In this document: positions 1,931 through 59,309 of the stretch, piece by piece | Numbering within the stretch: the first letter of the stretch is position 1 | Layout: every line of letters starts with the position of its first letter | Source of the DNA: Congzhengia minquanensis | GTDB taxonomy: Bacteria; Bacillota; Clostridia; UBA1381; UBA9506 | Reading direction: 5' to 3' | NCBI RefSeq assembly: GCF_014384785.1 | Contig: NZ_JACRSU010000004.1 | Span: forward strand, 227,917 to 291,916 | DNA length: 64,000 nucleotides | The notes under the pieces: model-generated | Told to the model about the DNA's origin: nothing | Database searches by the model: none | Seen by the model: the letters and a program-made list of their open reading frames with translations, nothing else | Translations under genes and position numbers: made by a program

Positions 1931-2031
1931 AGTGGCTTAAACACAGTGTTTCAGGGGTTTTAAAGCAGTTTGTCTTTATGTTTTACGACAGAATTACGAC
2001 AAATGACGAGCCATGATATAGTAAAAAAATT

Positions 2032-2072
2032 AGAACACTATTGCTTTTATATGGGCGATAGTGTTCTTTTTG
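2032..2072 (+). terminator. Rho-independent terminator downstream of lysS
   Basis: A perfect 10-bp stem (AGAACACTAT at 2032-2041 with ATAGTGTTCT at 2058-2067) is followed by a T run. It lies about 100 bases after the lysS stop. The intervening stretch contains three close copies of an ACGAC/ACGACAA motif of unknown meaning. Confidence 0.75.
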
Positions 2073-2216
2073 TATGTCAGGTGTACAAATACATTTGACT
2101 TTTTGGAGCGGAAGTTCTGTATCAATGGTATCTAATCATTTTACAAATTCATAGTGGATATAATTTCACCGAACTATTATAATATATACTTTCACGTCGT
2201 CCCTTCTGTAAAATCT

Positions 2217-2331
2217 TTACGAACGAATTAAATATTTACCATCTTCTAAAACGCCCATAAAATAAGGCTTTTCGGCACTTTGCGAAAATTGGATAAAAGT
2301 GATATTAATATAAAAGTCGTATCTTTTTGAT
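2217..2331 (-). pseudogene. Decayed coding fragment, C-terminal scrap
   Basis: A minus-strand frame reads roughly 'FIQFSQSAEKPYFMGVLEDG' followed by 'KYLIRS' and a stop (TTA at 2217-2219). The residue mix looks coding, but there is no start and the frame is closed upstream after about 35 codons. It is read here as a relic rather than a gene. The family was not recognised. Confidence 0.3.
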
Positions 2332-2352
2332 TATGAAAGGATATATTCGGCG

Positions 2353-2633
2353 TGGAAAAAAGCGCATATTTCTTTCACTAATCAGTCCTATGTATTTTAT
2401 TTGTTTGGTGCTATGCTGCTCTGTGTTAAACAGGGTATATACAAGGAAGAAGAATATGGTTACTTATTTGCAGACATTATGAGGAAGCAATCGGACACGG
2501 CTCTTTGAATTATCACACAAAAAGGGGTCGAAAGGCAACGTACAAGGAATATGAGAATACAACCGGAGAAACTGCTCCGTGGCCTAAATCCGATGTATTT
2601 ACAGATGATTACAACAGCTCAAATAATGAATGA
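2353..2633 (+). pseudogene. Decayed coding fragment with a frameshift
   Basis: Two plus-strand frames join end to end. The first runs from about 2353 and reads like a protein ('SYVFYLFGAMLLCVKQG', then 'YKEEEYGYLFADIMRK'). Near 2480 the reading continues in another frame ('EEAIGHGSLNYHTKRGRK', then 'YKEYENTTGETAPWPKSDV') and stops at TGA 2631-2633. No start codon with a ribosome site is present. This looks like a gene C-terminus broken by an indel. The family was not recognised. The 13-bp terminator at 2678-2724 sits just behind it. Confidence 0.35.
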
Positions 2634-2677
2634 AAGTAATTTATAAGCGCCTTTATATGGAAGGTGCAGATAGAAAG

Positions 2678-2724
2678 CAGACTGTGAGAAATGCGTATAA
2701 CATAGTTCTCACAGTCTGTTTTTG
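2678..2724. terminator. Strong terminator, possibly bidirectional
   Basis: A perfect 13-bp inverted repeat (CAGACTGTGAGAA at 2678-2690 with TTCTCACAGTCTG at 2706-2718) is followed by TTTTTG on the plus strand. It lies between the decayed plus-strand fragment and the 3' end of the rpiR-type gene, so it may serve both. Confidence 0.75.
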
Positions 2725-2749
2725 TAAATAACGAGACAATCCCAAATGG

Positions 2750-3583
2750 TTAAAACTTTTTGTTTTGCAAGGATTCCTCTGTCGTTTTTATTGTATTGAA
2801 TGCTTTTTTATCTTGACAAGATATGTAATAATAAATTGCATTGATAATCGCAAGCTGTGCTATTCTTGAATTAAGCCCTAAAATACTGTATTTCGTTTCA
2901 TTGGAAGCAGTATAAAGCGCAACATCGCTTTGCTTCACTATTGGAGATTTTCCGTTGTTGGTGATAGAAATAGAAAAAGCACCATTTTCTTTTGCGATTT
3001 TTAATGCATCTACAATATCTTTTGATGAACCTGAGTGGGAGATTCCAATCACAACATCTTTTTTCGTAAGATGAGAAGCGCTGATTGACTGCATATGATT
3101 ATCACTAAAGGCAATTGCATTATAACCTAATCGCATAAGTTTATGTTGAAAATCCAAAGCCACTGCCGAAGAATTCCCAAGACCATATATGACAATCTTA
3201 TTTGCGTTCATAATCATTTTAGCTGCAGTTTCAAGAGATTCTGAATCAAGGCTTTTTTTTGTCATTTCAAGAGAACAGTATATATCATTAGAAACCTTTT
3301 CGAATATTTCGATACAGGAGTCTTCCTTTGAAATTCCGTCGGCTATTTTTGTACTGCCCTCTTCTCGAGCAAATGAAATTTTCAATTCCTGATAGCCACT
3401 AAACCCAAGTCTTCGTGCAAATCGTACAAGCGTAGCCTCTCCACATTTGCACTCTTCAGCCAATTCACTTATAGACAATGATATAATTTTTCCAGGATTT
3501 TTTATAAGCCAGTCGGCGACTCTCTTTTCCGCACCACCCATTTTATCATATAGCATTTTTATCTGTAATGTTGTTTTATTCAT
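2750..3583 (-). CDS. MurR/RpiR-family transcriptional regulator
   Basis: A 277-residue one-component regulator. An N-terminal HTH_6 domain (about residues 1-80) contains 'ISELAEECKCGEATLVRFARRLG', shown here as its two helices SELAEECKCGEA and TLVRFARRLG. A C-terminal SIS sugar-phosphate-binding domain (about 105-250) contains 'IYGLGNSSAVA' and 'VIGISHSGSSKDIVDAL'. In this family a sugar phosphate or amino-sugar phosphate is the usual ligand. The gene diverges from the catabolic operon starting at 4031, and A+T-rich palindromes of the family's usual TGAAA-N-TTTCA type lie in between, so it is probably the island's own regulator. The start at 3583 has a GAGG site. Confidence 0.9.
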   Translation of the reverse strand: MNKTTLQIKMLYDKMGGAEKRVADWLIKNPGKIISLSISELAEECKCGEATLVRFARRLGFSGYQELKISFAREEGSTKIADGISKEDSCIEIFEKVSNDIYCSLEMTKKSLDSESLETAAKMIMNANKIVIYGLGNSSAVALDFQHKLMRLGYNAIAFSDNHMQSISASHLTKKDVVIGISHSGSSKDIVDALKIAKENGAFSISITNNGKSPIVKQSDVALYTASNETKYSILGLNSRIAQLAIINAIYYYISCQDKKAFNTIKTTEESLQNKKF

Positions 3584-3688
3584 AATTACCTCGCATTATA
3601 TCCAAGAGCAATTTAACACATTTTTTGAAGTTCCATTGTTATATTTTCGAATATTTTACTTAACATGCAGTGATTGTATTTATGCAGT

Positions 3689-3823
3689 TTATAATCCATG
3701 AGGCTGAGAGTAGATTTTAAGTAATTCTAAAACAGTACAATTTTCATAAAAATCCGAAACATATTTTGAATCACAAGCATCAAGAGAAATAACTCCGTTT
3801 TCCACAAGCGTAATAAAGTCCAT
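3689..3823 (-). CDS. 44-residue small ORF ahead of the rpiR-type gene
   Basis: ATG at 3823-3821 follows AAGGAGAC at a good distance, and the frame runs 44 codons to TAA at 3691-3689. The peptide begins MDFITLVENGVISLDACDSK and ends in QPHGL. It is acidic, with two cysteines, and has no membrane segment or known motif. It lies directly downstream of the perfect minus-strand promoter at 3866-3894 and upstream of the regulator gene, so both are probably on one transcript. It may be a small partner protein, a leader peptide, or the start of a lost gene. No function is claimed. Confidence 0.5.
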   Translation of the reverse strand: MDFITLVENGVISLDACDSKYVSDFYENCTVLELLKIYSQPHGL

Positions 3824-3865
3824 AATAGTCTCCTTGTAGGAATCTTGAAAATTATTTTCATTTTT

Positions 3866-3894
3866 AGTATATCAAAAAAACAAAAAAATGTCAA
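3866..3894 (-). promoter_or_regulatory. Minus-strand promoter for the small ORF and rpiR-type gene
   Basis: Read on the minus strand: TTGACA (3894-3889), 17 bases, TATACT (3871-3866). This is close to the sigma-A consensus. The palindrome at 3846-3860 starts 5 bases past the -10, so a bound regulator would block initiation (autoregulation). Confidence 0.75.
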
Positions 3895-3941
3895 TGATAA
3901 ACCGTTTGAAAAAAAATATTGAAAAATATTTTCAGAAACTA

Positions 3942-3970
3942 TTGAAAATTATTTTCATATATGATAGAAT
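3942..3970 (+). promoter_or_regulatory. Plus-strand promoter of the catabolic operon
   Basis: TTGAAA at 3942-3947, 17 bases, TAGAAT at 3965-3970. The palindrome at 3943-3957 overlaps the -35 and part of the spacer, as expected for a repressible promoter. The first gene of the operon starts at 4031. Confidence 0.6.
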
Positions 3971-4030
3971 TTATTTAAAACATAAAAAAGTTTATGGAAA
4001 TATTTTTCAAATTAAAAGGAGAGTGTTAAA

Positions 4031-5434
4031 ATGTTGGATTTTAAAGTGAAAATCGGATTGATTCCTGATGTGCGTGATTTGTTTGATTTTTCTACTCGCA
4101 AAGGTATTTTTGAACCTGCAAAAGGTGTAGAAAATAAAAACAAAGTTTTAGAATATATCAAGAACAATTTTTCTGATGAAATTACCGAGTTTTGTGATTT
4201 GGAATGGCTCAATGACTTGGGAGTTGTGTATAAGAACTTTGATTGTGATAGAGTTTGTGAGTACTTAAGAGAACAAAAAGTGGATGCCATATTTATTATT
4301 AATTGTAATTTCGGAAATGAAGAGGTTTGTGGCCAAATTGCGAAGAAGATGGGACTCCCCGTTCTTTTGTGGGGACCTCAAGATATGGTCTTTGAGCCTG
4401 ATGGACAGAGATACACAGACTGTCAGTGCGGTTTGTTTGCAATCAGTAAGCAGTTAAGGCGTTATGGTGTTCCGTTTAGTTATATAGAAAATTGTGAGGT
4501 TGAAGATGATATATTTAAAGATGGACTTCATCAATTTTTATCAGTAGTTACAATGATTAAAAACTTTAAAGAAATGAGAATTACACAAGTTGGTACAAGA
4601 CTTAATCCATTTAAGAGCGTTATGTATAACGAGCTTGAGCTGATGGAAAAGTTCGGTCTTAATATGCAGACTGTTAATATGGCTGTTGCCGAAAAGCATT
4701 TTAACGAAATTATGGAAACAAAGCAAGACAAGCTTAAGTTCTCCCTTGCAGATTTGAAGGAAAAATATGATGTTGACGGGCTTGACGATGCTCTTCTTAC
4801 AAAAATGCTTGCATTTGTTAATATGTATATAGAAATTTTTGAAGAAACTGATTCCGATGTAATGGCATCGGAGTGTTGGACGGCAATGCCTATGGCAATG
4901 GGCGCAAATCCTTGCCTTGCTATGAGCATCCTCTATGATATGGGATATATTGTTGCGTGTGAATCTGATATTTATGGAGCAATTACAGCAGCACTTTTAA
5001 CTTGTGCATCAAGAGGAAAGGTTGCTGCAACCTTTGGTGAATTTACAACAAGGCACCCCGGGAATAAAAACGCAGAGCTTTTATGGCATTGCGGTCCATT
5101 CCCCTACTCAACAAAAAGAGATGACGAAAAGGCTATATTATTTAACACAAAACCCAGCTTTAGAGCGAAAGATGGCAAATATACAATTGCAAGGTTTCAG
5201 GCAGACCATGGTCGCTATACATTGCTCGGTGGCGAATATCATACAACAGAGGGTCCTAATACATTCGGCACATATATGTGGGCAGAATTTAAGGACTTAT
5301 CGAAAATTGAGAAAAAACTAATAAATGGCCCATATATTCATCATATGGTTGAAGCTTATGGTAATTATAGTGAAATTTTGAGGGAGTTTTGTAAATACGT
5401 TCCCGAACTTGATTTTGACCCGATAGAGGAATAA
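4031..5434 (+). CDS. L-fucose/L-arabinose isomerase-family protein (COG2407-like)
   Basis: First gene of the island operon, 467 residues, starting at ATG 4031 behind AAAGGAGAG. By general sequence character it belongs to the FucI/AraA-like ketol isomerases, which interconvert aldoses and ketoses with a divalent metal. Visible features are an N-terminal Rossmann-like half ('DAIFIINCNFGNEEVCGQ', 'PVLLWGPQD'), a central 'SECWTAMP' segment carrying a likely metal-binding Glu, and a C-terminal half with 'ACESDIYGAITAALLT' (another likely Glu ligand) and 'HHMVEAYG' (likely His ligand). The presumed role is isomerisation of the incoming sugar before FGGY phosphorylation. The substrate cannot be read from sequence, and members of this family outside true FucI/AraA have varied substrates. 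Confidence 0.75.
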   Translation: MLDFKVKIGLIPDVRDLFDFSTRKGIFEPAKGVENKNKVLEYIKNNFSDEITEFCDLEWLNDLGVVYKNFDCDRVCEYLREQKVDAIFIINCNFGNEEVCGQIAKKMGLPVLLWGPQDMVFEPDGQRYTDCQCGLFAISKQLRRYGVPFSYIENCEVEDDIFKDGLHQFLSVVTMIKNFKEMRITQVGTRLNPFKSVMYNELELMEKFGLNMQTVNMAVAEKHFNEIMETKQDKLKFSLADLKEKYDVDGLDDALLTKMLAFVNMYIEIFEETDSDVMASECWTAMPMAMGANPCLAMSILYDMGYIVACESDIYGAITAALLTCASRGKVAATFGEFTTRHPGNKNAELLWHCGPFPYSTKRDDEKAILFNTKPSFRAKDGKYTIARFQADHGRYTLLGGEYHTTEGPNTFGTYMWAEFKDLSKIEKKLINGPYIHHMVEAYGNYSEILREFCKYVPELDFDPIEE

Positions 5435-5457
5435 TATAAAGAAAGAAGGATTAAAAA

Positions 5458-6882
5458 ATGACAGACTTTTTATTTGATGTAGTTGCAACCGAACTTGAGG
5501 ATGCAGTCGGAAGAGAAAACTGTTCTACAAGAACAATTGATAAACTCGCACATAGTGTTGACTATTTCTGGCTTTCAAGAATGTGGGCAGATAGAGGCTT
5601 AAGAATGCCTGAAGGCGACTTTATAGTTGCGCCAAAGGATGCAAAAGAAGTTTCTGCAGTATTAAAAATCGCAAATTACTATAAAATCCCTGTTACAACA
5701 TGGGGCGCTGGTGGTGGCACACAAGGTGGCGCTGTTCCGGTTTGTGGTGGTATTGTATTAGACACAAAGAGAATGAATAAAATTTATGATGTGAATGAAC
5801 AGGGTATGTACATAGAATGTGGCACAGGTGCTATCTATAAGCATCTTGAATATGCCGCAAACGAAAAAGGCTATGCAACAATGCATTATCCATCTTCCCT
5901 TACATGTTCAACAGTTGGTGGATTTTTGGCTCATCGTGGAATTGGTGTATCATCAACTAAATACGGAAAAATTGATGATATGGTACTTCAGATGGAGGTT
6001 GTTTTGCCAAATGGTGACATCATTGAAACATCACCTGCTCCAAAACATGCAGCAGGTCCTGATTTGAACCAAATATTTATCGGTTCAGAGGGTACACTTG
6101 GTGTTATGACAAAGGCTCAAATGAGAATTTATGAACAACCTGAATCAAGACAGTTTAGAGGATTTTTGTTCCATAATATGACAGATGCTTTTAATTCAGG
6201 AAGAGAATTATTGCAAAAGTTCAAGCCATCAGTTATGCGTCTTTATGACGAAGCAGAAACTGCATCTTTAATCAAGAAAATTGTCGGAGTTGAAAAGAAA
6301 GGTGCATTTATGAATATTGCAATTGAGGGCGTTAAAGAAATGGCAGATCTTGAAATGAAGATTTTGCTTGAAACTTTCGCAAAATACGGAGCAGAAGATT
6401 TAGGCTCAGAGTACGGTGAAAAATGGTGGAAAGAAAAGATTACATTCTTCTACCCAGGTCATATGATGGATATTCCGCAATGCTTTGGCACAATGGATAC
6501 AATCGCACCTTATGATAAGATAGAAAAGATTTACTGGGCGATGAAGGAAGCAATTGAAACAAACTTCCCACAAGCTAAATTTATCGCCCATTTCTCACAC
6601 TGGTATGAGTGGGGTTGTATGATTTATGACAGATTTATTGTTGATGGCGATAAAGTTCCTCAAGACCCACACGAAGCTTTTAGACTTCATCAAGCAATTT
6701 GGAACTGCGGTGTAAGAACTGCACTTGCTAACGGTGGTGTTGTAAACGACCACCACGGTGTAGGCATCAAACTCGGCAGACTTATGAAAGAACAGTATGG
6801 ACCTGCGATGCAGGTGTTTGAAGGAATTAAGAAACAACTTGACCCAAATGGTATTATGAATCCATTCAAGCTTGGACTTTAA
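5458..6882 (+). CDS. FAD-linked oxidase/dehydrogenase (GlcD/LctD/AGPS superfamily)
   Basis: A 474-residue flavoprotein of the VAO/PCMH fold. The FAD-binding domain (about residues 50-215) shows 'PVTTWGAGGGTQGGAVP', 'DTKRMNKI' and 'GSEGTLGVMTKAQ'. The substrate/cap domain follows, and the C-terminus has 'NDHHGVGIKLGRL', then 'LDPNGIMNPFKLGL'. The double-His 'HHGVG' is more like the alkyl-DHAP-synthase branch than classical GlcD ('EHGIG'). It would oxidise a 2-hydroxyacid or sugar-derived alcohol. The downstream Fe-S gene starts 13 bases after its stop, and an ETF gene closes the operon. This recalls the Lct/GlcDEF arrangement, with electrons leaving to a carrier rather than to oxygen. The substrate is unknown. 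Confidence 0.85.
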   Translation: MTDFLFDVVATELEDAVGRENCSTRTIDKLAHSVDYFWLSRMWADRGLRMPEGDFIVAPKDAKEVSAVLKIANYYKIPVTTWGAGGGTQGGAVPVCGGIVLDTKRMNKIYDVNEQGMYIECGTGAIYKHLEYAANEKGYATMHYPSSLTCSTVGGFLAHRGIGVSSTKYGKIDDMVLQMEVVLPNGDIIETSPAPKHAAGPDLNQIFIGSEGTLGVMTKAQMRIYEQPESRQFRGFLFHNMTDAFNSGRELLQKFKPSVMRLYDEAETASLIKKIVGVEKKGAFMNIAIEGVKEMADLEMKILLETFAKYGAEDLGSEYGEKWWKEKITFFYPGHMMDIPQCFGTMDTIAPYDKIEKIYWAMKEAIETNFPQAKFIAHFSHWYEWGCMIYDRFIVDGDKVPQDPHEAFRLHQAIWNCGVRTALANGGVVNDHHGVGIKLGRLMKEQYGPAMQVFEGIKKQLDPNGIMNPFKLGL

Positions 6883-6895
6883 GGAGGTAACTATA

Positions 6896-7966
6896 ATGAA
6901 TTTTTCGCAAAAAGCAAAAGAACATATAGATAGTTGTCGTTTCTGCTGGATGTGCCACCATGTGTGTCCCGTAGGTAATGCAACAGGATTAGAAAGAAAC
7001 ACAGCAAGAGCAAGAGCATTAGGGTTATCACTTGTTGCCCGTGGAGCTGTTGAATATTCAGAAGATATTATTAACAATGTTTATGAATGTACACTTTGTG
7101 GCGGTTGTATGACAGACTGCGTAACAGGTTGGGACCCAGTAATGTTTGCTAAAGAAGCAAGACTTGGTGCGGCTCTAGATGGAAAACTTCCTGAATATGT
7201 ATTAAAAATGATAAATAACCTTACCGAAAAGGGAAGTATTTACGGTGCAGAAAAGAATCCAAATATTCCTGTTTTTGAAGATAAGGATACATTGTTCTTC
7301 TTAGGGGAGGATACTCGTGCTAAAGGCTGTGCTAAAGCTGCAGTTGAACTGTTACAGAAAGCAGGAGTAAAATTTGCTTTACTTGAAAATGAGCCTAACA
7401 GTGGTGCGTCAATGAACTTTTTAGTAGGTGCTGCTAATGAAACAAAATCTATGATGGAGGAATGTACAAAAATCCTTTCTTCCTATAAAACTGTTATCTG
7501 CTACGACCCTTATGATGCTGATGTAATACTTCGCGAATACAAGGAATGGGGCATTGATGTAAAGGCAGAGGTTAAGACATTTACTTCATATGTGGCAGAG
7601 CTTATTGAGAACGGCGCATTAAAAATTAAAAATAATGGCAAGTCATATACTCCTCAAGATAGTCCATATCTTGCAAGAGATTTGGAAGAAACACAGCCAA
7701 TCCGTAAAATTTTATCTGCTTGCGGAACTGTAAATGAAATGTTATTAAACAGAGAACACACCGTTTTAGCAGGTCAGCTTATTATGGGTGAATATATGAA
7801 TGATGTAATTGAAAAAATTGCGTCTAACAGATGGAGTAATGCCAAAAATATGAACACAAAAACTTTAGTTACTGCCTCTACTGCAGAATATGAATATTTG
7901 TCAAGAACGAAGCCTGAAGGTATGGAGCTTTTAAAAATTGAGGAGGTTGTTTTACAGTGCTTGTAA
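6896..7966 (+). CDS. Two-cluster [4Fe-4S] electron-transfer protein, GlpC/GlcF-like
   Basis: A 356-residue protein, with ATG 6896 chosen because AGGAGG sits 7 bases upstream. Two CxxCxxCxxxC motifs are visible: Cys14/17/20/24 ('CRFCWMCHHVC') and Cys65/68/71/75 ('CTLCGGCMTDC'), each able to bind one [4Fe-4S] cluster as in the N-terminal part of GlpC, GlcF and HdrC. The C-terminal two-thirds corresponds in position to the CCG (HdrB-like) domain, but the paired Cys-Cys-Gly motifs are missing; only 'SACGT' remains. It therefore looks like an electron wire between the FAD oxidase and the ETF rather than a catalytic subunit. Confidence 0.85.
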   Translation: MNFSQKAKEHIDSCRFCWMCHHVCPVGNATGLERNTARARALGLSLVARGAVEYSEDIINNVYECTLCGGCMTDCVTGWDPVMFAKEARLGAALDGKLPEYVLKMINNLTEKGSIYGAEKNPNIPVFEDKDTLFFLGEDTRAKGCAKAAVELLQKAGVKFALLENEPNSGASMNFLVGAANETKSMMEECTKILSSYKTVICYDPYDADVILREYKEWGIDVKAEVKTFTSYVAELIENGALKIKNNGKSYTPQDSPYLARDLEETQPIRKILSACGTVNEMLLNREHTVLAGQLIMGEYMNDVIEKIASNRWSNAKNMNTKTLVTASTAEYEYLSRTKPEGMELLKIEEVVLQCL

Positions 7967-8790
7967 ATCTTAAATATGTTTTAGATTTAGCGGAAAAAGG
8001 CAATTTTGCAATTCCTGCATTTAATGTATATAATATGGAGACAGTAATGGGTATTATTAAAGCTGCAGAAGAAACAAAAGCCCCTGTTATTATTCAAAAT
8101 TATTCAAGACTTGTAACGAACGAGGAAGGCTATTATCTTGCTCCAATTGTTTTGGCTGCAGCAGAAAAGGCAAGCGTTCCTGTTTGTTTCCATCTAGACC
8201 ATGGTGCAAGCGAAGAAGCTGTTGTACGTTCACTCAGATTTGGTGCAACAGGAATTATGATTGATAAATCACTTCTTCCATTTGAGGAAAATGTAGCAGC
8301 AACAAAGTCTGTTGTAGAACTTTGTAAAGCAGTTGGAGTAGAGGTTGAAGGTGAAATTGGTCATGTAGGTACTGCTGCAAATGGCGATGAACAGACTACC
8401 GAGTACACAACTGTTGAAGAAGCAAAAACTTTTGTTGAAAACACAGGTGTTGTTGCACTTGCAATTGCAGTTGGTACGGCTCACGGCAGATATAAGAAGG
8501 CTCCAAGGATTGCAATAGACAGAATTGCAGAAATTCACGATGCAGTTGACGCATCCCTTGTTTTACATGGCGGCAGTGGTATTCCTGATGAAGAAATTAA
8601 AGCTTCCATCAAAGCAGGTATCAGAAAAATCAACTTTGGTACAGACATTTGTTTTTCTTTCTTAGATAAAGTTTTTGAAACATCAAGGGATGTATATGCA
8701 ATAGATCTATTTATGAAGGATGCAATAGAGAATGTAAAAGAGTTTGCAATTAAAAAAATTAAACTTTTGGGTGCGGAGAATAGAATATGA
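7957..8790 (+). CDS. Class II (metal-dependent) ketose-bisphosphate-type aldolase
   Basis: A 277-residue TIM-barrel aldolase of the FbaA/GatY/IolJ family. The start is GTG 7957 with AGGAGG at 7941-7946, overlapping the end of the Fe-S gene by 10 bases. Metal ligands are visible in 'CFHLDHGAS', 'EGEIGHVG', 'VGTAHGRYK' and 'LHGGSGIP'; the last also binds substrate phosphate. Enzymes of this family cleave phosphorylated ketoses to DHAP plus an aldehyde. Lying next to a PfkB kinase and an IolB-like protein, it could play the IolJ role (cleaving a kinase product into DHAP and a three-carbon aldehyde), or cleave a ketose phosphate made by the FGGY kinase. The exact substrate is open. Confidence 0.88.
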   Translation: MLVNLKYVLDLAEKGNFAIPAFNVYNMETVMGIIKAAEETKAPVIIQNYSRLVTNEEGYYLAPIVLAAAEKASVPVCFHLDHGASEEAVVRSLRFGATGIMIDKSLLPFEENVAATKSVVELCKAVGVEVEGEIGHVGTAANGDEQTTEYTTVEEAKTFVENTGVVALAIAVGTAHGRYKKAPRIAIDRIAEIHDAVDASLVLHGGSGIPDEEIKASIKAGIRKINFGTDICFSFLDKVFETSRDVYAIDLFMKDAIENVKEFAIKKIKLLGAENRI

Positions 8791-9716
8791 TTAAGATTGT
8801 AGGAATAGGCGCTAATGTATATGATACATTAATCACTTTACCTGAATTTCCTGCAGAAGATACTAAAATGAGAGCAAATTCAACTTGCGTAAGCGGTGGC
8901 GGTCCTTGTGCAACAGGACTTGTTACCGCAAGCAAGCTTGGGGGTTCATCTGCTTTTATTGGTGTATTGTCCGATGATAATGCAGGTAAGTTTTTATTAG
9001 AAGATATGAAAAAATATGGTATGACAGACGAATATGTTGATGTCAAAAAAGGATATTCGTCTTTTTCCTCATATATATTGTTAAATACAAAAAAAGCATC
9101 ACGAACTTGTGTTTTTAATAAAGGAAATCTTCCCGCTTTGGAACTTTCCGAAAAACAAAAACAGGTTATTTGTGATGCTGAAATTCTTATGGTTGACGGA
9201 AACGAAATGGAATCTGCAATTGAGGGTGCAAAACTTGCAAATCAATCAGATACAAAGGTTTTGTATGATGCAGGTGGATTGTATGATGGTGTAGAAAGAT
9301 TGTTGCCATATGCAGATATTTTAATCCCGTCGGAAGAATTTGCATTAGGGCACACAGACAAAAAAACTGCAGATGAAGCGGCTATAGTATTGTATAAAAA
9401 ATATTCACCTGAAGTTGTAGTTATAACACAAGGTAAAAATGGCGGAATTATTTATGATGGTAAAGAAATTGCAAAATATCCTGCGTTTTTAGTTGATGCT
9501 GTGGATTCAAACGGCTCTGGAGATGTATTTCACGGTGCATTTGCTTTTGCGGTCAGTATAGGTTATAATTATAAAAAAGCATGTGTTTTTTCTAGTGCCG
9601 TATCTGCACTTAAGTGTACAAAGGTAGGCTCAAGAGCATCAATACCTACTTTAGATGAAGTTAAAAAATTTTTAAAGGAGCGTGGATGTAATGAATTTGA
9701 AGAAAACATGGAATAA
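8787..9716 (+). CDS. PfkB-family carbohydrate kinase
   Basis: A 309-residue ribokinase/PfkB-type sugar kinase whose ATG overlaps the aldolase stop (ATGA), a sign of translational coupling. Motif 1 is the glycine-rich 'CVSGGGPCATGLVTASKLGG' region (about residues 35-54). The C-terminal signature 'DSNGSGDVFHGAFAFA' (about 238-253) carries the catalytic Asp of GxGD. It would phosphorylate a sugar or sugar-acid intermediate with ATP. In inositol catabolism a kinase of this family (IolC) sits between IolB and IolJ, and the same three gene types are contiguous here. 2-keto-3-deoxygluconate or tagatose-6-phosphate kinase activities are alternatives. Confidence 0.85.
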   Translation: MIKIVGIGANVYDTLITLPEFPAEDTKMRANSTCVSGGGPCATGLVTASKLGGSSAFIGVLSDDNAGKFLLEDMKKYGMTDEYVDVKKGYSSFSSYILLNTKKASRTCVFNKGNLPALELSEKQKQVICDAEILMVDGNEMESAIEGAKLANQSDTKVLYDAGGLYDGVERLLPYADILIPSEEFALGHTDKKTADEAAIVLYKKYSPEVVVITQGKNGGIIYDGKEIAKYPAFLVDAVDSNGSGDVFHGAFAFAVSIGYNYKKACVFSSAVSALKCTKVGSRASIPTLDEVKKFLKERGCNEFEENME

Positions 9717-10479
9717 AAAATATGGTAAATCTGAAATAGTTACAAAAGATAATAGCCCATGCAAAAATATTGAAATTGACATGGTAAAATTAACAAAGGG
9801 TGATAAAAAAATCTATAGTGAAGCCGACAAAGAGTATGGTTTACTTATTTTAAATGGCAAATGTACAGTTGAAGGTGCAACATTCAAGTACGAAAATGTT
9901 GGCGAGCGTGAAACTGTTTTTGAGGGAAATGCAACGTGTGTATATGTCCCAAGAAATACAGATTTTACAATTACTGCTTGTGGTGAAGTTGCTATTGCAG
10001 TTTGTAAATGTCCATCAACTAATGACCATAAGCCTGCACTAATTAAGCCTACTGATGTTACCGGTAAAAAATTAGGTAAACCAGGCTGGGAAAGACATGC
10101 TATGTTTATACTTGATGAGAGAGTTGAAGCCGACCAAATTTATATCGGTGAAGCATGGATTGACGGCGGTCAGTGGTCTAGCTACCCTCCGCACAAGCAT
10201 GATGATATGAATATGCCAACAGAAGCAAATACTGAAGAAATTTATTACTTCGAGTTTGAAAAGCCACAAGGCTTTGGTATTCAAAAGGTATATACAATGG
10301 AAGGAGATATTGACGAAACTTATACTGTTAAATCAGGTGATTTCGTTGAAATTCCAAGAGGATATCACCCATACCATTCAGCTCCGGGTTATAAAAGTTA
10401 TATGCTTTGGATTATGGCAGGACCAATCAGAGGTTTTTATATGACTACGGATGAGGAACATAAATGGCTAAACAATTAA
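9691..10479 (+). CDS. IolB-like bicupin isomerase (5-deoxyglucuronate isomerase family)
   Basis: A 262-residue KduI/IolB-type bicupin. ATG 9691 is preferred over GTG 9682 because AAAGGAG ends at 9680, leaving 10 rather than 1 base of spacing. The metal-site motif 'PPHKHDDMNMPTEAN', followed by 'TEEIYYF', gives the His, His and Glu ligands. The downstream 'IPRGYHPYHSAPGYKSYMLW' region and 'MAGPIRGF' match the IolB C-terminal cupin. IolB converts 5-deoxy-D-glucuronate to 2-deoxy-5-keto-gluconate in inositol breakdown, and an analogous aldose-ketose isomerisation is likely here. It overlaps the end of the kinase gene by 26 bases. Confidence 0.82.
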   Translation: MNLKKTWNKKYGKSEIVTKDNSPCKNIEIDMVKLTKGDKKIYSEADKEYGLLILNGKCTVEGATFKYENVGERETVFEGNATCVYVPRNTDFTITACGEVAIAVCKCPSTNDHKPALIKPTDVTGKKLGKPGWERHAMFILDERVEADQIYIGEAWIDGGQWSSYPPHKHDDMNMPTEANTEEIYYFEFEKPQGFGIQKVYTMEGDIDETYTVKSGDFVEIPRGYHPYHSAPGYKSYMLWIMAGPIRGFYMTTDEEHKWLNN

Positions 10480-10483
10480 TTAC

Positions 10484-10738
10484 AATAAAAAGCACCTTTT
10501 TACGGCAGAAATAAGCACTATAGGTTGAAATTCAATCATAAAAAAGTTAGATGGCACAGAGTATATTTAGCAGGGCGCCCCTGATGTTTGGGCAAAAAGG
10601 GCGCCTATGCTTTTTCCTATTTATGGTGGTCTTAAAGAGGACAAATATGTTTTTGATGGGGAAAATATATACTTTCTAAATATGGTTACGCTTTAAAGAG
10701 TGAATTTGAGGGTATCTTTTGGCTTTAAACAAAAGAAA
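10484..10738 (+). pseudogene. Relic of an aldose 1-epimerase (galactose mutarotase, LacX-type)
   Basis: The 330-base gap between the IolB-like and DUF4867 genes is a dead gene. One frame reads 'TAEISTIG', a stop, 'IIKKLDGTEYI', a TAG where this family has Trp, then 'QGAPDVWAKRAPMLFPIYGG' and 'LKEDKYVFDGENIYF'. After a frameshift it continues 'KYGYALKSEFEGIFW'. This follows the mutarotase N-terminal pattern KKDGTEYLWQGDPxYWxRRxPVLFP, then GxLKDxKYxxxGKxY, then HGFAxxSEFE. Two stops, a frameshift and loss of about 200 C-terminal residues make it nonfunctional. A weak GC-rich hairpin (GGCGCCC/GGGCGCC) near 10580-10606 falls inside the relic's coding sequence and so need not be a terminator. Confidence 0.75.
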
Positions 10739-10808
10739 GGGTATCAATAAAATTGGTTCGGGAAAAACGCACGAAAGAATATATACAATGATAATAGAGG
10801 GATAAATA

Positions 10809-11429
10809 ATGAAACTTCACACTATACACGACAAAGAATTTGCGCCTTACGGCAGAGTTATTGATTGCGACTGTAGTGAAATAATTGATATGGCAAAAAA
10901 AATTGAATTGCCAAAAGAGGGTTCAACATATCTTGCTTCAGTAGAAGATTTTGAAAACCTAGAAGTAAAAACACAACTTGAAAAGGAATATTTTGGAGAA
11001 ATTCCAATTCAGGTGGGTTATTGTTTCGGTCATTCTACAAAGCTTAATGGTTTCGAATGGCACAAAAGTTCAGAAATAAATATAGCGGTAACCGATGCAA
11101 TATTATTTTTAGGTAATATTGCAGAAATGGAAAATGACAGGTATAATTCAGAAAATGCAAAGGCGTTCTTGCTTAAACGTGGTGATATTGTTGAAGTTTA
11201 TGCCACAACATTGCATTTTTGTCCTTGTGAAGTTACAAAAGATGGCTTTGGAGTGGTGGTTGTATTGCCAAAAGGCACAAACACAAATTTAGAACACACA
11301 CCAAAAGACAAAAAAATGTTTAAAAAAAATAAGTGGATAATCGCACACGAAGATAATGACAATTTGTTGAAAAGAGGCGTTGTTCCGGGAGTTTATGGAA
11401 AAAACTTTGAGGTAGGTAAGGATATATGA
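10809..11429 (+). CDS. DUF4867-family protein (cupin-like)
   Basis: A 206-residue cytoplasmic protein starting at ATG 10809 behind a GAGGG site. It resembles the DUF4867 family of Firmicutes, whose fold appears cupin-like and related in character to ureidoglycolate-lyase-type cupins. 'FEWHKSSEINIAVTDAILFL' gives a His and a Glu in a cupin-1 arrangement, and 'LHFCPCEV' supplies a His in the second motif. In my recollection such genes travel with sugar kinases and isomerases, but no reaction is established. Its stop overlaps the FGGY kinase start (ATGA), so the two are probably translated together. It may be a sugar isomerase, mutarotase or lyase that compensates for the dead epimerase next door; that is only inference. 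Confidence 0.65.
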   Translation: MKLHTIHDKEFAPYGRVIDCDCSEIIDMAKKIELPKEGSTYLASVEDFENLEVKTQLEKEYFGEIPIQVGYCFGHSTKLNGFEWHKSSEINIAVTDAILFLGNIAEMENDRYNSENAKAFLLKRGDIVEVYATTLHFCPCEVTKDGFGVVVVLPKGTNTNLEHTPKDKKMFKKNKWIIAHEDNDNLLKRGVVPGVYGKNFEVGKDI

Positions 11430-12895
11430 AGTATTTACTAGGAATTGATTTTGGTGGGGGCGCATCTAAAGCCACACTTCTTTGCGAAAATGGTGAGATT
11501 ACAGCAACTGCCGCATACGAATACGATACATATTATCCACAAAATGGATGGGTAGAGCAAAATCCTGAAGATTGGTACATTGCGACCAAAGAAAATATCA
11601 AGGCAGTTCTTGAAAAAAGTAAAATCAACCCATCGGATATTAAAGCAGTTGCACTAGATGCCGCAACACATACTGCAGTTGTTATGGATAAGGATTTTCA
11701 TGTTTTAAGACCAAGCATATATTGGACAGACACAAGAACACAAAAAGAAGTTGCAATTCTAAATGAAAAATACTACAATATTATTTTGAAACAAGTTTTA
11801 CACAATCCGGGAACAATATGGACTCTGCCACAGCTTATGTGGATAAAGGAAAATGAACCTGAAGTTTGGGAAAATGTTGAAAAAATCTGTTTTGCAAAAG
11901 ATTATGTACGCCATAAATTAACAGATGATTATGTAACTGATCATATTGAGGCTGAGGGTAGTATGCTCTTTGACTATAACAAACAGTGTTGGTCGAAGGA
12001 ATTATGCGATATTATAGATTTTGGTACAGAAAAACTCCCTCGAATTGTAAGCCCCACGGATTTAGTTGGTAAAATAACAAAAGAGGCTGCTGAAGATACA
12101 GGACTTTTTGAAGGTACACCTGTTATTTGCGGAAGCACCGATACGGTTATGGAGGTTTTTGCCGCAGGCGGTATAGAAAAAGAAGCTATGACGATTAAGC
12201 TTGCAACTGCAGGTAGAATTTGTGTCATTACAGATAAGACGTATCCTGACAAAAATCTTATAAATTATTCGCATTTTATTGACGGACTTTGGTATCCTGG
12301 CACTGCAACAAAAGCTTGCGCCGCATCTTATAGATGGTTTCGCGATACTTTTGGCGGGGATTACAAAGAATTAGATAATGAGGCGGAAATGCTGCCTATA
12401 GGATCGGATGGTCTTGTTTTTCATCCGTATCTTAATGGAGAACTTACACCTTATCAAAATCCAAAACTTTGTGCAAGTTTCGTAGGCGTCAGAGCGTATC
12501 ATACAAAATCACACTTTGCAAGAGCTGTTATGGAAGGTGTTTGTATGTCTATGATGGATTGTTTGGATGCTTTGAAAAATATTGGTATCAAGTATGATAA
12601 AAAGGCAGTTGTTATAGGCGGTGGCGGAAAAAGTGCCCTTTGGCGTCAAATATTAGCCGACAGTCTTGGAATAACATTGGTTCAAAATAAATATTCTGAT
12701 TCATCTTTTGGAAGTGCAATGCTTGCTGGTGTTGCAATAGGAGTATGGAATTCGGCAGTAGATGCCCTAAATATATGTAATGAAACTATATTCGAAACTG
12801 TGCCAAATATTGAAAACAATAAAAAATATAAATCACTTTTTGAAAAATACAAAAAAATACAACAGGCATTAGAATTAGTTTATAATGAGGATTAA
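11426..12895 (+). CDS. FGGY-family carbohydrate kinase (xylulokinase-like)
   Basis: A 489-residue ATP-dependent ketose kinase. The N-terminal FGGY domain opens with 'LLGIDFGGGASKATLLCENG' (phosphate-1 motif), then 'QNPEDWYIATKENIKAVL' and 'ALDAATHTAV'. The C-terminal domain has 'GVCMSMMDCLDALKNIG' and the adenosine-binding 'VVIGGGGKSALWRQILAD'. Length and layout fit xylulokinase/L-fuculokinase relatives. Its substrate is probably the ketose produced by the FucI-type isomerase, and its product could feed the class II aldolase. It is coupled to the DUF4867 gene by a 4-base overlap, and the ETF gene starts 3 bases after its stop. Confidence 0.87.
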   Translation: MKYLLGIDFGGGASKATLLCENGEITATAAYEYDTYYPQNGWVEQNPEDWYIATKENIKAVLEKSKINPSDIKAVALDAATHTAVVMDKDFHVLRPSIYWTDTRTQKEVAILNEKYYNIILKQVLHNPGTIWTLPQLMWIKENEPEVWENVEKICFAKDYVRHKLTDDYVTDHIEAEGSMLFDYNKQCWSKELCDIIDFGTEKLPRIVSPTDLVGKITKEAAEDTGLFEGTPVICGSTDTVMEVFAAGGIEKEAMTIKLATAGRICVITDKTYPDKNLINYSHFIDGLWYPGTATKACAASYRWFRDTFGGDYKELDNEAEMLPIGSDGLVFHPYLNGELTPYQNPKLCASFVGVRAYHTKSHFARAVMEGVCMSMMDCLDALKNIGIKYDKKAVVIGGGGKSALWRQILADSLGITLVQNKYSDSSFGSAMLAGVAIGVWNSAVDALNICNETIFETVPNIENNKKYKSLFEKYKKIQQALELVYNED

Positions 12896-12898
12896 TTT

Positions 12899-14251
12899 AT
12901 GAAAATAGTTGTGTGTGCAAAAATAATCAAAGGCGAGATAAATCCATTTGATGCCTGTGCGTTGGAAACAGCGCTTAGACTTAGTGATGATGTAACGGTG
13001 GTGTCTATGGCACCACCATCTGCTATAAATGAACTTACTCGCTTAACAAGACTTGGTGCTAAAGTTATATCTATAACAGATAGTGCTTATGCAGGGTCTG
13101 ATACTTTGGCAACATCATATATTTTGTCTTGTGCAATAAATAAAATCGACTATGATTTAATCATTTGCGGAAGACAAACCATTGATGGTGATACAGCGCA
13201 GGTGGGCCCGTCCCTTGCTACAAGACTTAATATTAATCTAATAACAAATGTTTTGGATGTTTCTTTAAACGATAACACTTTAAGTTGTAAAACCCGTATT
13301 AAAGATGAAACTTGCACACTTCCTGCATTAATTACAGTAGAGAGGATAAATGAACTTAGATTCCCGAGTATATTTTCAAAAGCGGGAACTCCCATGCTTT
13401 GGAACAATATTGATTTGAAGGCAGATTTAAGTAAATGTGGGCTAAATGGATCTCCCACCCAAGTATTAAAAACCTTTGAAAACGAAAAAGGTAAAAGACA
13501 TTGTAAATTTATTTCTTTTCATGAGTTAGATTCTTTAATTGATGATTTGCTTAAAAAAGAAAAATCGGGTATTGAATTTAGTCCGAGTAAAACAAAATTA
13601 AAATCGGTATGGGCAATCGGAAAAGAAGTTGAGCAAGAAGCGTTTGCAATTGCAGAAAATGTTATTGTTCTTGATGAAAAAGATCCATTTAAAATTGCAG
13701 AAATAGCAAGAAAAGATTGTCCGGATGTTATTCTTTGGAGTGCAGATTTATGGGGTAGAAAAAACGCACCAATTGTGGCATCGCTTTTGGAAACAGGTTT
13801 GTGTGCTGATTGTACTGCACTTGAAAATGATGGTGAAAGATTATATATGTATCGACCTGCTCTTGGTGGAAATATAATTGCCAAAATTGAGTGCAAGACG
13901 AAGCCCCAAATGGCAACAGTTCGCACAACCCCTGATTTTGCCGACATTATTGTTTCCGGTGGCAAAGGTGTTGCAAATAAAATAGATAAATTAGAAAAAA
14001 TTGCATTGAAATATAATGCCGAACTTGGCGCTTCTCGTGGTCTTGTTGATATGGGAAAAATCCCATATAGCGCTCAAATCGGTCTTACAGGGAAAACGGT
14101 TTGCCCCAAAATATATATTGCTATAGGAATATCAGGAGCAGTTCATCATACCGTAGCAATTGAAAATGCAGATACTATAATTGCAATAAATCCTGATAAA
14201 GATGCACGTATTTTTGAATATGCAGATTTTGGTATAATAGATGAGTTTTAA
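12899..14251 (+). CDS. EtfB-EtfA fusion: single-chain electron transfer flavoprotein
   Basis: A 450-residue protein that joins both ETF subunits. Residues 1 to about 230 are EtfB: 'MKIVVCAKIIKGEINPFDA', 'GSDTLATSYILSCAI' and 'IICGRQTIDGDTAQVGPSLA', the last being the nucleotide/FAD motif in the form seen in bifurcating and FixA-type ETFs rather than mitochondrial-type ones. Residues about 240-450 are EtfA, with a shortened domain I ('PDVILWSADLWGRKNAPIVA') and the intact FAD domain: 'GASRGLVDMGK' (about 377), 'QIGLTGKTV', 'IAIGISGAVHH' and 'ADTIIAINPDKDARIFEYAD'. Normal EtfA is over 300 residues, so about a third is missing. It ends the operon and presumably accepts electrons from the FAD oxidase/Fe-S pair. 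Confidence 0.9.
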   Translation: MKIVVCAKIIKGEINPFDACALETALRLSDDVTVVSMAPPSAINELTRLTRLGAKVISITDSAYAGSDTLATSYILSCAINKIDYDLIICGRQTIDGDTAQVGPSLATRLNINLITNVLDVSLNDNTLSCKTRIKDETCTLPALITVERINELRFPSIFSKAGTPMLWNNIDLKADLSKCGLNGSPTQVLKTFENEKGKRHCKFISFHELDSLIDDLLKKEKSGIEFSPSKTKLKSVWAIGKEVEQEAFAIAENVIVLDEKDPFKIAEIARKDCPDVILWSADLWGRKNAPIVASLLETGLCADCTALENDGERLYMYRPALGGNIIAKIECKTKPQMATVRTTPDFADIIVSGGKGVANKIDKLEKIALKYNAELGASRGLVDMGKIPYSAQIGLTGKTVCPKIYIAIGISGAVHHTVAIENADTIIAINPDKDARIFEYADFGIIDEF

Positions 14252-21821: not shown

Positions 21822-23552
21822 TTAAGCGAAGGCGATGGCTTCACTCACCGTCAGCGCCTTGAGATATAGCTTCACATTATTAGCGTTATTGTTAATTTTT
21901 ATATATTTCACGCCATTTATGTCGGACAGATAGCGGTTAAACCAGCCGAATCCAAACATTTGCTCGTTTCCGCCGTCATATAAAACGCCGTCAATTATAA
22001 ACATTACAATTCTGGGGCCGCCGTCCACAATGATAGTGACGTGGTGTGGGCCGGAGGATAAGGCATTTTCTCCTGTCGTTTTGGTGCACCAGAACTTGCC
22101 GTCGCCAATGGAGAATATCAACTGCCCGTCTTTTTGTTCAACGGCAATTCCCTTTTCGTTTTCCACGGTGGAGAGCAGCATGCCGTTTTCTCCCGTGATG
22201 TCGAAATCTAATGTAAAGCCGCAGTTGATGAATTTTGAGCGGCAGTCGATCTCCGCCTCAAAATCTTTCACGGTGAACGGTTGCAGGTAGGGCATGGCGC
22301 TGCCGTTTTCAAGGGTCGCAGCGTTTTTTGGTACGCGTCCTGCGTTCTCCAACTGTGCCCAGAGGCCCTCAATCAGATTTTTATCAATGTGGTTCACCGC
22401 CGCGTTCTGTTTTTGGGTTTCGGTTATGTAATATTCCCCGTTTGCTTCAATGAGGTCGGGGTAGGAAATGCGAATGTTAATGTCGTCGTCATACAACACA
22501 ATTTCCGGCTGGGAAAACCTTAAAATTTTACCTTGGGGAGAGTCGGCCTCCACCGCGCCGCACAGCCAGGCCGGGTTCCGCTCCTCATACCACCGGCAGC
22601 CGTTGTTGTGATACCAGTATAAATATTTTCCGTTTTCACACTTCCAAATGAAGTTGGCCGCCCGCGGGTGTTTCACCTGCCGCCCGTTATCGTAGGTGAG
22701 GGGCTCGGGTTTCGAAAAGCTCACGCCGCCGTCCCGGCTGTAGGCACAGTAGGGATGGCCGGTCACCGTTCGGAAGGTGCAGAAAATGCTGTTGTCGCTC
22801 AGCACAACAAAGCTATGCTCCTCTGAGATATTGCTCACCGCCCGGTCTGTACGAATGCCCCTGCCGCCTTTGGGAAACGTTTCCCAGGTAAGCTTTTCGG
22901 GGTTTGTTTCCGTTTCGATGTTTTGACAAAACAACAGCGTCCCTTCGGAATGATACATAAAACCTTCTCCGAATTTGCCAACCTTATATTGGGGAACAAA
23001 CACCCCGCCGTTATAAGAAAATGGCTTGCCTACGTTCCAGAAAAACTTGATTTTTCCGCCGTAGGGGTTCTCTAAATCCACCTGAAAATTTTCAAGGGGA
23101 ATGTCGTACCAGTTCTTTGACCAGGAGCGCCCGCAGTCGTCGCTGAATTTAAACACAAAATGACCTTGCGTATCTACCCGGGTGGTTACGCCGTTTTCAA
23201 AGGGAGGATCGTCTGCCAAAATGCTTCTTGTGTTGTCTGCGTTAAAGTTATAGAAGCAGTATATTCTGCCGGAACTGGTTTTATAAAGCACCGCATAAGA
23301 GGATTCGGGGCTGTTTGCGGATTCCACGTCGGTTACGTCTGTCCAGGTTTTGCCGCAGTCTGTGCTGCGCATGGAAATCACGTGCTGGCCGGCGTCGCCC
23401 TCCATGCCTGCCCCGGTGGTCACCACAAGCACCCACGCGCCGTCGTCTGCCTTCACAACATAGGGCTGGTCGGAATAATATTCCACAGGGATTTTGCTTC
23501 CGTTTTTAATGTTTCTCGCATCGTACGATGCATCTTTTTTTGTGTTGCGCAT
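21822..23552 (-). CDS. Sialidase-fold (BNR-repeat) protein with C-terminal jelly-roll domain
   Basis: A 576-residue protein without a signal peptide, so intracellular. The first 380 residues carry Asp-box (BNR) motifs SxDxGxxW ('STDCGKTWTD', 'SDDCGRSWSK', 'SRDGGVSFSK') typical of six-bladed sialidase propellers. The last 190 residues look like a LamG/concanavalin-type beta-sandwich ('FTVKDFEAEIDCRSKFINCG', 'HHVTIIVDGG', 'MFIIDGVLYDGG'). It may be a glycosidase acting on an imported oligosaccharide, but the sialidase arginine triad cannot be confirmed by eye, so sialidase activity is not claimed. Start at 23552 with AAAGGCGG. It sits between ktrB and addB with gaps under 35 bases. Confidence 0.65.
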   Translation of the reverse strand: MRNTKKDASYDARNIKNGSKIPVEYYSDQPYVVKADDGAWVLVVTTGAGMEGDAGQHVISMRSTDCGKTWTDVTDVESANSPESSYAVLYKTSSGRIYCFYNFNADNTRSILADDPPFENGVTTRVDTQGHFVFKFSDDCGRSWSKNWYDIPLENFQVDLENPYGGKIKFFWNVGKPFSYNGGVFVPQYKVGKFGEGFMYHSEGTLLFCQNIETETNPEKLTWETFPKGGRGIRTDRAVSNISEEHSFVVLSDNSIFCTFRTVTGHPYCAYSRDGGVSFSKPEPLTYDNGRQVKHPRAANFIWKCENGKYLYWYHNNGCRWYEERNPAWLCGAVEADSPQGKILRFSQPEIVLYDDDINIRISYPDLIEANGEYYITETQKQNAAVNHIDKNLIEGLWAQLENAGRVPKNAATLENGSAMPYLQPFTVKDFEAEIDCRSKFINCGFTLDFDITGENGMLLSTVENEKGIAVEQKDGQLIFSIGDGKFWCTKTTGENALSSGPHHVTIIVDGGPRIVMFIIDGVLYDGGNEQMFGFGWFNRYLSDINGVKYIKINNNANNVKLYLKALTVSEAIAFA

Positions 23553-59187: not shown

Positions 59188-59309
59188 AGTTCATAACCTC
59201 CTTTACTGTTGTTATCCTTTGCAGATAAATTTATTTTATTCGAAAGAATTGACATGGAATTTTGTGTGTGATAAAATGAACTAAATTTTATTTTGTGGAG
59301 GGATTTTTT

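Follow-up and report, generated by a model that had tools for sequence, protein, structure and literature searches.

What is broken down by a sugar operon that encodes, next to its isomerases, kinases and aldolase, an FAD oxidase, an iron-sulfur (Fe-S) protein and an electron-transferring flavoprotein (Etf) of its own? This question is raised by a locus of Congzhengia minquanensis, which lies in a stretch of 64,000 nucleotides (contig NZ_JACRSU010000004.1, positions 227,917 to 291,916; called the window in the following). Nine intact co-directional genes on the plus strand (4031-14251) are found there together with a divergent RpiR gene on the minus strand. The gene cluster is a conserved operon and recurs beyond chance, because the set is found again in genomes with strongly diverged synonymous sites and with a recurring promoter palindrome. 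As to its function, we tentatively propose the catabolism of a hexuronate-type substrate, or a glycoside of one, with C5 oxidation by the FAD oxidase (FADox) coming first; this is a possible assignment, which rests on gene content, fold, motifs and the palindrome, as do the enzyme activities and the operator binding that are predicted below. A sequence-only reading had counted ten co-directional open reading frames, which had to be corrected to nine intact genes, whereas the divergent regulator it described was borne out. The features, in window coordinates, are the following:

2750-3583, minus strand: RpiR/MurR-family regulator (PF01418 + PF01380), with the operon in 30 of the 55 chosen relatives described below
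3846-3860, no strand: operator-like palindrome TGAAAATTATTTTCA, exact (motif scan)
3920-3934, no strand: palindrome with one mismatch (motif scan)
3943-3957, no strand: palindrome TGAAAATTATTTTCA, exact (motif scan)
3995-4009, no strand: palindrome with two mismatches (motif scan)
4031-5434, plus strand: FucI-like aldose/ketose isomerase, 467 residues (sole NCBIfam match SftI)
5458-6882, plus strand: FADox, hyperconserved, predicted AGPS/D-lactate dehydrogenase (D-LDH) fold (PF01565 + PF02913)
6896-7966, plus strand: Fe-S protein with eight conserved cluster cysteines and no CCG match (ATG at 6896, alternative start TTG at 6872)
7957-8790, plus strand: class II aldolase of the dihydroxyacetone phosphate (DHAP) type (solved relatives YdjI and AgaY)
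8787-9716, plus strand: PfkB sugar kinase (best solved relative sulfofructose kinase)
9691-10479, plus strand: KduI/IolB isomerase (ATG at 9691, alternative start GTG at 9682)
10538-10681, plus strand: aldose-1-epimerase gene remnant (tblastn with the intact homologue of locus L007)
10809-11429, plus strand: DUF4867 cupin of the SqvB/SftX family (PF16161, 247.6 bits)
11426-12895, plus strand: FGGY kinase, XylB type
12899-14251, plus strand: fused EtfB-EtfA (EtfBA), 450 residues, with a bifurcating-FAD (b-FAD) motif

A scan of species genomes for FADox gave 278 confirmed relatives, and the locus counts given here use the best 80 of these 278. Gene content was compared in 55 loci, selected so that FGGY and the sequence upstream were both visible; FGGY is therefore present by selection, and contig ends are uncorrected. 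The aldolase is encoded in 53 of them, PfkB in 52, IolB in 54 and EtfBA in 48, while FucI (38), RpiR (30), DUF4867 (26), mutarotase (13) and Nag genes (10) are more variable. The Fe-S gene directly follows FADox in 75 of the 80 loci, and the contigs of the remaining five extend no more than about 115 bases beyond it. An alternative gene order in L044, L046, L073, L077 and L080 keeps the blocks FADox-FeS, IolB-FGGY-EtfBA and aldolase-PfkB; L065 has it without PfkB in view. The set is thus conserved together, and the refuting condition named in the sequence-only reading, a set scattered in other genomes, is not borne out by this gene-neighbourhood comparison.

The overlaps and small gaps that had been described hold for most junctions but not for a 329 bp gap between IolB and DUF4867 (window 10480-10808), which contains a decayed aldose-1-epimerase (mutarotase) gene (tblastn, 62 bits, 62.5% over 48 residues, E 4e-12). 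In 14 of the 80 relatives, the mutarotase gene is intact and separates IolB from DUF4867 or FGGY, and 12 of these 14 also have DUF4867; in the 55 chosen loci the two genes co-occur (p 0.003). That one replaces the other was considered and rejected, as the 58 loci with IolB and FGGY comprise 12 with both genes, 15 with DUF4867 only, 2 with mutarotase only and 29 with neither. At the corresponding place in L046 (13334-15349), IolB and DUF4867 are separated by the gene of a 671-residue protein without a Pfam match, which may be a glycoside hydrolase that has escaped recognition. The A+T-rich island noticed earlier is real, with a GC content of 0.311-0.389 in all 1-kb bins from 2001 to 14000 and 0.385-0.535 in the remaining bins of the window.

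The promoter region points to dedicated regulation. The palindrome TGAAAATNATTTTCA, at up to two mismatches, has four copies in the 64 kb, all of them in the RpiR/FucI intergenic region, against 1.22 expected, and none of 100 shuffles reached four. It is found at the same tolerance in 25 of 33 RpiR-divergent intergenic regions (the window included) versus 0.35 of 33 in base shuffles, the motif having been derived from the same regions in which it was counted. Among the matches listed for 26 related genomes there are six exact palindromes, which lie at the FADox operon as far as contig coordinates tell. Twenty one-mismatch sites away from the operon were chosen for inspection; 18 lie inside open reading frames and 2 are intergenic without a telling neighbour. 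The operon is probably controlled by its own RpiR protein through this putative operator, and the predicted regulon is likely restricted to the FADox operon.

FADox stands out by its conservation, with 84-98% identity across the 80 loci versus 50-69% for lysyl-tRNA synthetase. Its synonymous sites are about as diverged as those of the neighbouring genes, and the protein is also far more conserved than its operon partners. In L001, for example, the match to the window at four-fold sites is 0.56 for FADox and 0.34-0.53 for the neighbours (nine loci were compared overall). A recent transfer as the cause of the high identity is unsupported, as the four-fold sites in these nine loci are diverged like those of the neighbours.

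In a sample of 391 genomes from the class of G001, FADox is found in 25 at E <= 1e-150, of which 24 are at 85-98% identity and one at 54%. According to the record titles of the best 80, the hosts are one Planctomycetia bacterium and otherwise Clostridia and other Bacillota, many of which were sampled from ruminants or hindguts. FADox is also encoded in 15 of 119 genomes from the family to which the Planctomycete G018 belongs. Twelve regions from this family were read, and eight are of the window type (EtfBA in view in five) and four of a sister type, which consists of NagB, FADox and the Fe-S gene without an EtfBA match. The sister-type clusters (L143-L146) further show, where examined, CCG domains in the Fe-S protein of L145, MFS transporters in L143 and L145, and a polysaccharide-deacetylase domain in L144.

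According to a structure model built with 74 sequences (predicted local distance difference test, pLDDT, 87), which replaced a poor first model (14 sequences, pLDDT 54), FADox has the D-LDH/AGPS fold with AGPS-like motifs. AGPS is its first match with both Foldseek and phmmer, and the HxSHxY and HHG motifs of AGPS are represented by AHFSHWYEWG and NDHHG. FADox differs from AGPS in the first of the three consecutive active-site histidines, which is replaced by Asp or Glu (DHH in the window, EHH in sister proteins), and in having Fe-S and Etf genes alongside. Eight cluster cysteines (C14, C17, C20, C24, C65, C68, C71, C75) are retained in the Fe-S protein, which in this resembles the GlcF/GlpC-type subunits with two 4Fe-4S clusters; unlike these, the window protein has no Pfam match to a CCG domain, which the sister protein of L145 does have.

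EtfBA carries the b-FAD motif DGDTAQVGP at residues 96-104; across 13 homologues, eight of these nine positions do not vary, and G103 hardly does. In line with this, its EtfB half matches five Etfs known as bifurcating with 86-112 bits and four non-bifurcating ones with 26-35 bits (all nine matches). The lactate dehydrogenase-Etf complex LctBCD of Acetobacterium woodii likewise combines an FAD oxidase of the same fold with an Etf that has the b-FAD motif, but its LctB and LctC are separate and LctC has a ferredoxin domain, whereas EtfBA is a short fusion and lacks one. LctD is also modelled with an active-site metal, while FADox is without that type of motif, and FADox is part of a sugar operon and has an Fe-S protein of its own. 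The labels "Lct type" and "GlcDEF-like" used in the sequence-only reading therefore describe an analogy and not membership, given the AGPS-like motifs of FADox and the missing CCG match. Its proposal of a dedicated Etf electron exit is supported as far as the EtfB half has the motif of bifurcating Etfs; confurcation to NAD+ is plausible because the fused EtfBA carries this motif. In LctB, the corresponding residues 122-130 (D122-P130) flank the bifurcating flavin, and a variant changed at this site is reported to keep 7% of the confurcation activity (PMC9232219).

Among the enzymes of carbon metabolism, the IolB-type isomerase passes the 5-deoxyglucuronate isomerase model TIGR04378 (253.4 bits, cutoff 205). 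Its residues H168, H170, E178, E183 and H226, which we take to be metal ligands, are at least 95% conserved in 71 sequences. The FGGY kinase narrowly passes the xylulokinase model XylB (TIGR01312, 383.5 versus 380.25), while the FucI-like isomerase remains far below the cutoff of the sulfoquinovose isomerase SftI (NF048012, 100 versus 700 bits). The PfkB kinase matches sulfofructose kinase with 115 bits and fails the IolC model (91 bits, cutoff 300). The combination of an IolB-family enzyme, a PfkB kinase and a class II aldolase recalls the IolB-IolC-IolJ set of myo-inositol catabolism, from which it differs by the failed IolC cutoff and by IolD, IolE and IolG, which were not found among the operon genes. 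In DUF4867, E83, H85, E89 and H136 are at least 95% conserved (33 sequences) and form a 2His-2Glu site of likely metal ligands. Their spacing equals that of the metal site E97, H99, E103 and H150 given for BmSqvB, for which the same source reports no detected mutarotase activity and leaves the family role unsolved (PMC11968277). Growth of Clostridium saccharobutylicum on xylose depends on a xylB gene whose operon also contains DUF4867 and FucI-like genes (PMC6158908). The genes given in that report are xylB, a ROK regulator, a fructose-6-phosphate aldolase, a transketolase, DUF4867 and FucI; the XylB-type kinase, DUF4867 and the FucI-like isomerase are thus shared, whereas FAD oxidase, Fe-S protein, IolB and Etf are not among the genes given there.

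From these components, a catabolic route for a hexuronate-type compound can be sketched. FADox would take a hydride from the carbon beside the carboxylate, i.e. C5 of the hexuronate, to give a 5-keto-uronate. By way of the two-cluster Fe-S protein, the electrons would reach EtfBA, which together with reduced ferredoxin would reduce NAD+ by confurcation, as in LctBCD. The C5 oxidation is suggested because the substrates shared by KduI and IolB are hexuronates without a hydroxyl group at C5, and because oxidation by the D-LDH-type relatives of FADox takes place at the carbon adjacent to a carboxylate. The KduI/IolB enzyme would then turn the aldehyde into a ketose, which PfkB may phosphorylate and the class II aldolase may cleave to DHAP and a three-carbon acid. 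FucI, aided by DUF4867 or the mutarotase, and the XylB-type kinase would channel a neutral companion sugar, for which xylose is a possibility, towards central metabolism, and in some genomes NagA/NagB-type genes might take an N-acetylhexosamine companion instead. With its two isomerases and two kinases, the operon would suit a substrate made of two sugar parts, one of them acidic and the other neutral or aminated.

A bolder version, which we consider distinctly improbable, takes FADox for an oxidative uronidase that abstracts the C5 hydride from a uronic acid glycoside, whereupon the ring opens with formation of the C5 ketone and the glycosidic bond falls apart. If true, this would set free the companion sugar, either xylose or N-acetylhexosamine, along with a 5-keto-uronate on which the IolB-like isomerase could act; the pairs of isomerases and kinases would then be shared between the halves of a single disaccharide. 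In redox terms, such a reaction would be the counterpart of the route by GH88/GH105 and KduI, and confurcation would recover the electrons.

Genome-level associations were counted in 25 genomes with and 25 without FADox, uncorrected for relatedness and without accounting for the completeness of metagenome-assembled genomes. A NagB-like gene is present in 15 of 25 versus 1 of 25 (14 without that of G404, which has only 30% identity), GH123 in 16 versus 7, and GH88/105 above the cutoff in 14 versus 6, which is a weak difference. The contig of G404 that bears the sister type is just 5.4 kb long. NagA (281 bits, cutoff 226) and NagB-like (104 bits, cutoff 237) genes, scored here for L001, are embedded in several of the operons; in window-type NagB-like proteins, the phosphate-binding loop is altered relative to reference NagB. 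These NagB-like genes give a hint of N-acetylhexosamines. In L163 and L164 (G280 and G367), a second RpiR-FucI pair is followed by genes for NagA and a NagB-like protein where FADox would otherwise stand.

Several observations weigh against the hexuronate proposal. Alpha-glucuronidases are not enriched in these genomes (GH67 in 0 of 25 with versus 4 of 25 without FADox, GH115 in 2 of 25 in both), and 20 of the 25 FADox genomes have UxaC, which belongs to the ordinary hexuronate route. Its presence speaks against ordinary glucuronate or galacturonate as substrate, and it also led us to reject the idea that the operon replaces an absent hexuronate isomerase. Cleavage of the 5-keto product would yield an unusually reactive three-carbon acid, and the aldolase matches the tagatose-bisphosphate aldolase AgaY (179 bits) almost as well as YdjI (186 bits). 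FADox lacks the D-LDH-type metal-binding motif, AHFSHWYEWG and NDHHG standing in its place, and VAO-type enzymes of this fold oxidise benzylic carbons. EtfBA has only the Pfam matches ETF and ETF_alpha and, unlike LctC, no ferredoxin domain in its 450 residues. The pairing of FucI with DUF4867 gets no help from the 55 loci, with no association at p < 0.05 and FucI in just 38 of them. Finally, one-mismatch palindromes number 146 in the 26 genomes versus 41 for a reversed control, and other targets are possible.

Other substrates and reactions have to be weighed against this background. FADox could act as the oxidase of a small 2-hydroxy acid from the end of the pathway, for instance glycerate, lactate or glycolate, so that the sugar would be an ordinary aldose or ketose and the redox module would dispose of the aldolase product. 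In favour of this, LctD and D-LDH have the same fold, FADox finds its best NCBIfam match in GlcD (198 bits, cutoff 568), and an Ldh2-type dehydrogenase gene follows EtfBA in L043, L049, L059 and L070. As the D-LDH-type metal motif is absent, and as neither the IolB-type isomerase nor the extreme degree to which FADox is conserved would be accounted for, we regard this explanation as doubtful. The Nag genes within the operons, the genome counts for NagB-like and GH123, NagB in all four sister clusters and the deacetylase domain of L144 would suit an amino-sugar acid such as N-acetylmuramic acid, whose D-lactyl ether carbon resembles the substrate of D-LDH and might be oxidised by FADox to give pyruvate and hexosamine. 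It is nevertheless unlikely, since Nag genes occur in just 10 of the 55 loci, the genome counts are uncorrected for relatedness, and FucI, IolB, PfkB and the aldolase would have no role.

A variant of sulfoglycolysis on sulfoquinovose or a related sulfosugar comes to mind because the isomerase is nearest to SftI and the kinase to sulfofructose kinase, because DUF4867 and the class II aldolase correspond to SqvB and SqiA, and because the Ldh2 of L059 is nearest to sulfolactate dehydrogenase. The FucI-like isomerase, DUF4867, sugar kinase and class II aldolase are indeed the likeness to sulfo-EMP2 and sulfo-TAL (SqvD/SftI, SqvB/SftX, SqiA; PMC9594981). The SftI score is far under its cutoff, the Ldh2 of L059 reaches 241 bits against a cutoff of 500, and the described routes give no role to FADox, IolB and EtfBA, which the window adds together with the Fe-S protein and FGGY. 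In addition, DUF4867 is common together with fucose-isomerase and FGGY families outside sulfoglycolysis, with 434 of 557 in one network cluster (PMC11968277), and we hold this variant to be very unlikely. Least credence of all is given to an AGPS-like, redox-neutral ether chemistry of FADox with EtfBA serving another enzyme. The motifs and the first matches would favour it, but the acidic residue in place of the first histidine, the Fe-S gene that follows FADox wherever the contig continues, and EtfBA in the same operon speak against it.

Some further genes lie near the operons. Glycyl-radical enzyme genes are found within about 10 kb in L001, L005, L006, L014, L053 and L055; they were rejected as operon companions, since these neighbours fall into different subgroups. 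Elsewhere in the window, there are a BNR_2 (sialidase-like) gene (21822-23552), a GH116 gene (59295-61841) and a GH42 gene (61845-63872).

The view that no described pathway has exactly this gene set stands so far, as no characterised cluster and no paper on the set was found among the matches listed from the open-licence literature, supplementary tables not covered; the literature on muramic acid and 4-O-methylglucuronate likewise had nothing on it among the matches listed. FADox is found in 25 of the 391 class genomes, many carriers are from ruminants or hindguts, and Planctomycetes have it too; therefore, the operon probably serves an abundant compound of dietary or microbial origin for which no breakdown route has yet been assigned. 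It provides a defined protein set for the substrate search and a new set of putative partners in Etf-based electron confurcation, and it gives a natural context for the role of the DUF4867 protein.

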